The notes under the pieces are model-generated. The model did no database searches. It was not told the DNA's origin and saw only the letters and a program-made list of their open reading frames with translations. From an uncultured Veillonellaceae bacterium (GTDB lineage: Bacteria; Bacillota; Negativicutes; Selenomonadales; Selenomonadaceae), in NCBI GenBank assembly GCA_945949525.1, contig CAMFES010000004.1, positions 1 through 58,530 of the forward strand: a DNA stretch of 58,530 bases. Reading direction: 5' to 3'. Shown here piece after piece: positions 56,532-58,530 of this stretch. Each line of letters starts with the position of its first letter. Position 1 is the first letter of the stretch. The position numbers and the translations under genes are program-made.

Positions 56532-56561
56532 ATCGCCGCACGGCAAGCAATCAATCAGACA

Positions 56562-56611
56562 AAAATCCCCTGCTGCATATCTGCCAACGCAGAAGCAGCA
56601 GGGGATTTTTA
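56562..56611. terminator. Bidirectional terminator
   Basis: AAAAATCCCCTGCTGC pairs with GCAGCAGGGGATTTTT and serves the convergent small membrane protein and ATPase genes. Confidence 0.9.
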
Positions 56612-56630: not shown

Positions 56631-57617
56631 TCAACTATCTTGCATCTCTTTTTCGCTCTTTCTGCCGTAATTTTGGATTGCATTAACCATTTTAGGCAGA
56701 TTTTTCTCATGCAAATATACGGGATTTATATGCTGCTTACTATATTGCCAATAGGTACCTGCAGTCTGCTTAATCAGAAAATCTGTAAAAAATCGCTCCC
56801 AGCTGATATATGCTTTGCTATCAATGTAATTCTCCGGGGCTTCCAACACCTTGGCAACAGCATTATTCTCAGAAAAATGTGCCTTCAACAGCAGCCATTC
56901 AAAAGATTCCGGCAAAAACAGGTATATCTTCCTGCCATCCTCCATCAAATGATAAATCCTTTCTATTTCCGCCCCAAAGGCTGCACCATCAGCAACCACA
57001 ATGCAGGCCTTCTCACTACAAGCCAGCAATAGCCTGTACACATTTGATTTTCCCTGAGCGGACACGCATTGATATTTCTTTCCATACACGGCCTCAAAAA
57101 ACTCAAAGCCCGATTTGCTATCTTCGATTACCATGACAGCGGAATCTGAACCATACTCCTGTTTATCCGCCTCATACAGCGGATAAAATTCATTATAAAT
57201 CTGCTTGAAACCGGCATACTTCTGAGAAATTCTGATGCCATAAATTTCCTGAACACTGTATGGCAGGTTAGGCAGATTGTGTCTGGTAATAAGAACAAAA
57301 TAATTGTCCGATGCCCCAACAGCGGCAGCAAACTCATCACTGCCAATAAATTTTTCGCCCTCATCTATAAAGACTATACTATCACTAATTGACTGCAAAT
57401 TAACCTGCCAGCGAATACTATCCAGCACAACGCATTTTTTTGCACAATTCACAGTTATGCCGCTGGCAACGCCATTTTGCTCATAATTCGACAGCATTCC
57501 TATCAACGTGGTTTTGCCGGTGGCACTATCTCCCCTGACCACAGTGATATTCCGCCGTATGTCAAATTCAAACCGCAATCTTTTGTTGAAAATAGTAACC
57601 CTATATTGACCTTTCAT
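56631..57617 (-). CDS. AAA/P-loop ATPase paired with a DUF4869 protein
   Basis: 328 residues. An N-terminal P-loop ATPase core has Walker A GDSATGKT and Walker B SIVFIDEGEKFI, and the following TRHNLPNLPYSVQEIYGI may carry a sensor. The C-terminal half (about 140-328) includes a segment VVIEDSKSGFEFFEAVYG and VVADGAAFGAEIERI that resembles a Toprim-like fold, as in OLD-type nucleases, but this is tentative. It is A/T-rich compared with its neighbours, suggesting acquisition. It starts 40 bases downstream of the DUF4869 gene, same strand, so the two probably form an operon. No known function; a defence or stress role is speculative. Confidence 0.75.
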   Translation of the reverse strand: MKGQYRVTIFNKRLRFEFDIRRNITVVRGDSATGKTTLIGMLSNYEQNGVASGITVNCAKKCVVLDSIRWQVNLQSISDSIVFIDEGEKFIGSDEFAAAVGASDNYFVLITRHNLPNLPYSVQEIYGIRISQKYAGFKQIYNEFYPLYEADKQEYGSDSAVMVIEDSKSGFEFFEAVYGKKYQCVSAQGKSNVYRLLLACSEKACIVVADGAAFGAEIERIYHLMEDGRKIYLFLPESFEWLLLKAHFSENNAVAKVLEAPENYIDSKAYISWERFFTDFLIKQTAGTYWQYSKQHINPVYLHEKNLPKMVNAIQNYGRKSEKEMQDS

Positions 57618-57657
57618 TTTCTTCCCCTATATAAAGCATGCAATGTTTACCAGCAAA

Positions 57658-58107
57658 TCAGATAAAATTATAAATATTCTCCAGCCACTCATGACGATTG
57701 CGCACTATCTTGCCATTATTAAGAATTTCAATTTCAAAGGGACCTGCACCAAAACGCATCCCATGATGTAGGGTAATGGTTATATCCTTATCTTCTGCCA
57801 GCTTTAATATCCACTTGGCGCAATTATCCCCACAGGCGGAGCCATTAAAAATATTTCCGCTGGTATCAAATGCCAGAAGCATCAGGGTTTTCACCCCGCC
57901 GGATAATTCCTTGGGCGTAATCGCCCCAAGCACCGGGCTGTCTATAACATGACTGCTGATGACAACGGATTTATCAACATCCGCAATCATGGCTTTTGCC
58001 AATTCATCAGTAATCCACTTATCCTCATATTGATTGTTAAAATACATGTCAGGATTGTATATTTCATTCTCAAGTCCGCCCATGTACACCTTGAGCATAT
58101 TCATCAC
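57658..58107 (-). CDS. DUF4869 protein
   Basis: About 149 residues. The pattern YNPDMYFNNQYEDKWITDELA, PKELSGGVKTLMLLAFDTSG and ACGDNCAKWILKLAEDKDITI matches what I recall of DUF4869, a family of unknown function found in Firmicutes and often beside an ATP-binding protein, as here. The SxCGDNC cluster has two Cys that could bind metal. Start MLKVYMG (third ATG) is possible; the first ATG is given. It is the first gene of the pair, A/T-rich. Confidence 0.75.
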   Translation of the reverse strand: MMNMLKVYMGGLENEIYNPDMYFNNQYEDKWITDELAKAMIADVDKSVVISSHVIDSPVLGAITPKELSGGVKTLMLLAFDTSGNIFNGSACGDNCAKWILKLAEDKDITITLHHGMRFGAGPFEIEILNNGKIVRNRHEWLENIYNFI

Positions 58108-58209
58108 CTCATATTGCCTGGAAACTCAAATCACTTTTTAACCTTGCTTTCTTATATTTTACTATCTGTTTCGATATCTGCAAAGTTTTTTATAACCCCT
58201 GCAATAAAA

Positions 58210-58246
58210 ATCGCAGTACAGAAGCCCATAGCTTCCATACTGCGAT
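58210..58246 (-). terminator. Terminator of atpC
   Basis: ATCGCAGTA..GAAGC pairs with GCTTC..TACTGCGAT and is followed on the minus strand by TTTTATT. It ends the ATP synthase operon before the A/T-rich ATPase pair. Confidence 0.8.
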
Positions 58247-58312: not shown

Positions 58313-58530
58313 TTATGCCACCGGATTGCCGGAAGCAGTCAGACGCGCCATAGCGCGATGCAGGGCAGCCTCGGCCCGCTTGCCGTCCACAGGGCACTCA
58401 GCAGAGGAAGTGCAGTTCTTGAACTCCTCCAGGCGCTTCTTGGCACGGTCATAAGCCTTCTGGGCCCTCAGCACGTCAATCTCCACAGGCAGCTCGGCAG
58501 CAGAAGCCAGCACGGTAATCTTCTCCGGCT
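58313..58530 (-). CDS. atpC: F0F1 ATP synthase epsilon subunit, partial
   Basis: The frame runs off the right edge; visible residues are PEKITVLASAAELPVEIDVL and then the C-terminal helical hairpin AQKAYDRAKKRLEEF. This is the C-terminal part of the epsilon subunit, whose helices regulate ATP synthase. It has an unusual CTSSAECPVDGKRAE insertion or variant between the two helices. The rest of the atp operon should lie to the right. Confidence 0.9.
   Translation of the reverse strand, partial: PEKITVLASAAELPVEIDVLRAQKAYDRAKKRLEEFKNCTSSAECPVDGKRAEAALHRAMARLTASGNPVA

Follow-up and report, generated by a model that had tools for sequence, protein, structure and literature searches.

OLD-type ATPase–Toprim proteins operate in anti-phage systems (PMC10568477), with the archaeal OLD protein Cran1 as one known cellular exception (PMC12796447). 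Members of OLD class 1, such as P2 Old and the Thermus scotoductus OLD protein (6p74), combine an N-terminal ABC-type ATPase with a C-terminal Toprim domain in one chain of 540-740 aa, and their ATPase is complete, with its own signature and D-loop. Gabija (GajA/GajB, class 2) is a two-gene system in which the partner is the UvrD-like helicase GajB. In PARIS (AriA/AriB, class 4), OLD-like ATPase and Toprim parts are distributed over small adjoining genes, the ATPase being split from the Toprim part and AriA retaining a complete ABC ATPase. Asymmetric ABC heterodimers such as degenerate-site transporters, SMC and MutS bind ATP between the Walker motifs of one subunit and the signature and D-loop of the other, with both halves present in each subunit. 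To our knowledge, every ABC ATPase has its Walker and signature motifs together in a single domain.

We analysed a pair of adjacent genes, encoding an ATPase and a smaller DUF4869 protein, in a 58,530-nt stretch of DNA referred to as the window (Table 1). In our preferred reading, which we consider rather likely, the two genes together encode one OLD-like effector that depends on ATP and has its ABC ATPase divided between two proteins. As in OLD class 1, an N-terminal ABC-type ATPase part would be followed by a C-terminal Toprim-like domain, and the E, D and SxE positions match. However, the large subunit comprises about 330 aa and departs from OLD in DxD and in one metal-B ligand, and signature and D-loop both appear to lie in DUF4869, so that the complete single-chain ABC ATPase of OLD proteins is not found. 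With PARIS the pair shares the distribution over small adjoining genes, but here the ATPase itself would be split: the Walker half is fused to the Toprim-like domain and lacks a signature, and in distant relatives all three parts are separate. Like Gabija, the pair is a two-gene system, but its partner is DUF4869, the only conserved neighbour in 80 ATPase loci; neither a UvrD-like helicase, nor a reverse transcriptase as in the Retron systems (OLD class 3), nor any other third gene was conserved there. Compared with asymmetric ABC heterodimers, the two halves appear fully segregated.

Table 1. Positions of the gene pair, its motifs and the surrounding signals in the window, and of the distant relatives in their own loci. 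Residue numbers of LSGGVKTL refer to a 148-aa DUF4869 model.
Feature	Position	Strand	Remark
DUF4869 gene	57658..58098	-	146 aa from ATG 58098; open frame 57658-58107 reaches GTG 58107
LSGGVKTL, ABC signature-like (residues 67-74)	57883..57906	-	S68, G69, G70 invariant; aligned to LSGGQ
CGDNC cluster near ABC D-loop position	57820..57834	-	C91, G92, N94, C95 invariant
ATPase-Toprim gene	56631..57617	-	328 aa ORF
Walker A GDSATGKT (residues 29-36)	57510..57533	-	G29, S31, G34, K35 invariant, 55 sequences
Walker B IVFIDE (residues 81-86)	57360..57377	-	E86 invariant, D85 over 90%
Toprim/OLD-like C-domain (about residues 157-318)	56664..57149	-	Profile match to OLD Toprim; VIA Z 7.4
Inverted repeat, bidirectional terminator-like, 3' end of pair	56561..56610	.	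Perfect, 16-nt arms
Terminator-like stem-loop, atpC/pair interval	58210..58246	-	17 pairs
Weak promoter-like site, 5' of DUF4869	58156..58184	-	9/12, consensus match only
Unannotated distant relatives	L155:3855-5411 (example)		L138-L159, L161, L163, L164, L170

Both open reading frames lie on the minus strand with a 40-nt gap, where the first-pass annotation had placed them, and DUF4869 is read first. The open frame of DUF4869 does extend to the GTG proposed as its 5' end, but both the ribosome-binding site and homologous proteins (ML.IYYG...) point to the ATG nine nucleotides further in as the true start. The A/T-richness noted earlier was borne out by composition (GC 0.41-0.42 and GC3 0.44-0.46 in the pair versus 0.51-0.62 and 0.61-0.78 in the flanking genes), as was the presence of terminators on both sides, the inverted repeat and the stem-loop bracketing the pair. 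Between a 120-aa gene and atpC, the convergent intergenic site measures about 1,780 nt with the pair in the window versus about 65 nt without it in a congener (L266), indicating that the pair is an insertion. In another relative of the same genus (L027), the pair is also found near the atpC end, with about 93–94% identity in both ATPase protein and DNA. The atpC gene of the window (58313-58528) is truncated by the contig end, since the window is one entire contig, and the upstream ATP synthase context is unreadable here.

Residues 1–150 of the large subunit carry Walker A (G29-T36) and a Walker B (D85) with the catalytic Glu (E86), and Walker A aligns with ABC P-loops in the profile match. The P-loop core described in the first-pass annotation was thus found, but the chain lacks an ABC signature: no conserved signature-like motif lies between the Walker motifs in a 55-sequence alignment, and since only about 45 residues separate them, the helical/signature insertion of ABC ATPases is absent. 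Database comparisons added little. Nothing passed the cut-off in Pfam or NCBIfam, PADLOC and PHROGs returned weak P-loop matches and nothing better, and PDB sequence profiles gave a weak P-loop match only. The single-chain AF2 model (pLDDT 91.8) retrieved the OLD nuclease 6p74 first in Foldseek, followed by MutS-type ATPases. The OLD match covers the full model, but no single rigid-body superposition fits it (rmsd 21), and we therefore give more weight to the domain-wise VIA matches.

The C-terminal half, previously suggested to be possibly Toprim-like, was compared with Toprim and OLD proteins and matched the OLD Toprim in profile and fold rather than a housekeeping enzyme. A repeating strand/helix pattern runs through residues 157–318, in which E165 follows strand 1, D210 strand 3 and a PESFE motif strand 4. 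When aligned by hhalign to a profile built from 27 OLD proteins, the C-domain scored 30.0, a value that none of 100 shuffles reached (14.4±2.4), and VMVIED, GKSN and ADG fell on the VILVEG, G-[KS]-[ST]-NI and D-G-D stretches of the OLD Toprim. VIA superposed it on 6nk8 over 139 residues with Z 7.4. Receiver domains also matched the C-domain core (Z 7-9), but over about 80-100 residues, and receiver identity is less likely than Toprim. Residues that have been tested in OLD are E377, D381, D431, D433, S478 and E480 (PMC7049728). E165, D210, S238 and E240 keep OLD catalytic positions and K294 is invariant, while D433, the second Asp of DxD, is replaced by A212 and D381, the first metal-B ligand, by S169. 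The domain is C-terminal to the ATPase as in the OLD family, but the full OLD catalytic set (E, D/E, DxD, S/T-x-E, Lys/Arg) is not present. Because of these two replacements, cleavage of nucleic acid by the C-domain is plausible, judged from its residues, but not assured.

DUF4869 belongs to PF16163 (188.6 bits versus a cut-off of 28.9), for which Pfam gives no function and of which our literature searches found no mention. Its conserved alignment contains no Walker A (GxxxxGK[ST]). Profile and model comparisons instead liken it to the ABC signature half that its partner lacks. A helix is predicted from residue 69, which places LSGGVKTL at a helix N-end as in ABC proteins. From residue 67 onwards, the elements come in the order of an ABC C-lobe: the signature where a helix starts, a short strand in the place of Walker B, the CGDNC turn with the D-loop helix, the H-loop strand, a hairpin and a further helix. 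The conservation claimed for SACGDNC was confirmed in 50 sequences (Table 1). In Foldseek, the chains listed for the single-chain AF2 model (pLDDT 95.1) were ABC transporters and ABC-type ATPases (SMC, Rad50, PtuA), and 49 of the 50 VIA rows were ABC folds, with Z 4.2–5.5, within the range of common arrangements. Aligned by hhalign to 35 ABC nucleotide-binding domains (NBDs), a profile built from fetched loci and not from a curated set, DUF4869 scored 33.5 (37.5 with close relatives alone), versus 12.2±2.2 for 200 column shuffles (maximum 21.1) and 12.0 for the reversed profile. The small partner described in the first-pass annotation is hence paired as proposed, but it is not merely small: it resembles the signature half that the ATPase lacks, with SACGDNC near the D-loop.

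Most of the DUF4869 profile signal is due to the signature. With the signature masked, the score fell to 15-22; the part after the signature aligned in register with ABC NBDs, at a score that 3 of 200 shuffles matched, and the region before it showed no similarity to the NBD profile. In addition, DUF4869 had no match among PDB sequence profiles, and its profile did not match the full-length OLD profile. LSGG could be a coincidence and DUF4869 an unrelated small alpha/beta regulator or targeting protein of an OLD-like ATPase, as the weak VIA scores (Z 4-5.5), the masked score and the confinement of strict conservation to a short stretch would allow. We consider this improbable, as nearly all fold matches are ABC ATPases and the order of signature, Walker-B strand, D-loop helix, H-loop strand and hairpin is that of the ABC C-lobe, at a score reached by none of the 200 shuffles. 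In distant relatives the signature reads L-S-[TSAE]-G-C-K-T, in which Ser and the second Gly remain and the S-x-G-x-K pattern of genuine ABC signatures is preserved. Their D-loop cluster reads ECGxN, and as C-G-x-N survives in them without the second cysteine, SACGDNC is unlikely to bind zinc or form a disulphide.

In ABC dimers, signature and D-loop work in trans on the nucleotide of the partner (PMC7049728). A heterodimer with a composite ATP site is the simplest reading of the pair, as the elements acting in trans appear in DUF4869 and those acting in cis in the ATPase. The large subunit would supply Walker A, Walker B and the C-terminal Toprim-like effector domain, and DUF4869, as a degenerate ABC half without P-loop, the LSGG signature helix and the D-loop. 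ATP bound between the two proteins would close the heterodimer, each pair holding a single composite site; closure would switch the Toprim domain, which would then probably cut nucleic acid upon infection. Association, motifs, folds and profile similarities make up the computed support for such a split effector. The split architecture of the pair is well supported by profiles and predicted models; we infer the physical complex, the composite ATP site, the cleavage, its trigger and a defence role.

Distant relatives resolve the predicted architecture further. Among 250 genomes around a Lachnospiraceae genome, weak matches of the ATPase and DUF4869 profiles coincided in position, and these loci consist of adjoining genes for a DUF4869-like protein of ~145 aa and a stand-alone P-loop protein of ~142 aa. 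Often there is also a third gene, about 205–265 aa long; in about 15 loci it belongs to a single Toprim-like family (MKYLWTEDTGAG…, E<1e-16), which is homologous to the C-domain of the window ATPase (97% probability over 143 columns). In many loci this separate gene lies 5' or 3' of the other two. Pfam did not recognize the third gene in three loci inspected (L155, L140, L151), and it matched the P-loop protein of the same loci weakly to AAA_15, AAA_22 or SMC-like families, among others. That is, Walker, signature and Toprim halves each appear separable, the first and last being fused in the window protein and the signature half separate. We see an even chance that the pair is the first ABC-type ATPase with Walker and signature halves in two proteins, each incomplete alone, that have to combine into a single ATP site, and that it founds an unannotated two- or three-gene superfamily of immune effectors in the gut. 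The literature searched held no earlier description of a split ABC ATPase, though ABC-ATPase classification may have noted such a split. If true, the natural split would offer a minimal system to test how a half acting in trans controls catalysis, DUF4869 would gain a likely molecular role, and a new class of OLD-like effectors would probably exist in gut and rumen bacteria, including the unannotated three-gene branch. Next to individual three-gene relatives we observed a Csm6-like CARF-HEPN gene (directly upstream, L146:3998-5329) and a TOTE conflict-system primase-helicase (directly 3', L142:4246-7200); type I restriction genes also neighbour such relatives.

The two close families are rarely apart. 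DUF4869 lies directly upstream on the same strand in 79 of the 80 best ATPase loci of named genomes, and the 80th locus, in which none was seen, begins at a contig edge. Conversely, in 30 loci around a Lachnospiraceae genome that were seeded on, and chosen by, the best DUF4869 matches, an ATPase adjoins DUF4869 in 25, several of these ATPases being broken, and no ATPase neighbour was detectable in five (L115, L119, L132, L134, L136). Spacing across the ATPase loci ranges from an overlap of up to 35 nt to a gap of 114 nt. DUF4869 precedes the ATPase in most operons; the reversed order was seen in L099, once, and in several members of the family to which the window belongs. Among plasmid records, both proteins matched the same three entries and nothing else. 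ATPase and DUF4869 distances correlated with r 0.83 over 76 pairs (best of 2000 permutations 0.17), a mirror-tree value that is partly due to common descent and alone is no proof of contact. The co-occurrence check therefore upholds the two-gene module proposed earlier, with near-total pairing, co-diversification and both gene orders.

A toxin-antitoxin-like pair would likewise show close association and, in most operons, DUF4869 in first place; the ATPase-Toprim protein would then be a toxic nuclease that DUF4869 neutralizes or inhibits, with no composite ATP site. The ATPase is often broken or missing beside an intact DUF4869 (broken in L109, L110, L112, L123, L125, L129, L133, L013-L015, L017 and L020), as if the large subunit were costly, but gene length (987 versus 441 nt) and the choice of loci on best DUF4869 matches both confound this apparent bias. 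As conservation of the ABC signature and D-loop in DUF4869 would be left unexplained, we regard an antidote as unlikely and retain the split ATPase.

In genome contigs, 476 relatives of the ATPase were confirmed. The distribution spans several phyla (Lachnospiraceae, Treponema, Coriobacteriales, Victivallales) but is patchy (18 of 300 genomes in the window's class). In a sample of 250 genomes around a Lachnospiraceae genome, 43 had a PF16163 match above the cut-off; among 398 genomes of the window's phylum, the window's own genome alone was matched. One genome (G806) has 13 PF16163 matches, with close and distant types mixed (loci L112, L148-L153, L169, L170, L172). No relative was found in viral contigs, and as five "phage" records are unverified, unannotated faecal scaffolds, we do not describe the pair as phage-borne. 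Patchy distribution, low GC, the empty site in congeners, frequent broken copies and several copies per genome mark the pair as accessory genes.

Whether these accessory genes serve in defence is, taken alone and on the present computations, evenly poised; an ATP-gated heterodimer would most likely be anti-phage, and the module would probably serve in phage defence or self-harm. Patchiness over several phyla, low GC, insertion at a compact site, and multiple and many broken copies speak for defence, whereas most copies lie amid housekeeping or metabolic genes, outside defence islands. Such mostly metabolic neighbours, the cellular precedent of Cran1 (PMC12796447) and the receiver-domain scores on the C-domain core (Z 7-9) would fit a housekeeping or DNA-transaction factor that depends on ATP, or a signalling protein whose C-domain is receiver-like. 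The accessory features listed above argue against such a function, as does the extent of the receiver matches, about 80-100 residues versus 139 for the OLD Toprim, and we hold it to be highly improbable. In PADLOC, 110 near genes matched 107 models and 110 far genes 7; the models are redundant, so that these counts stand for few proteins each. Some neighbours of the pair do point towards defence (type I restriction specificity subunits, AbiEii and SoFic), as do the Csm6, TOTE and type I restriction genes beside three-gene relatives, and the gene neighbourhood is at most suggestive of a defence or stress role.
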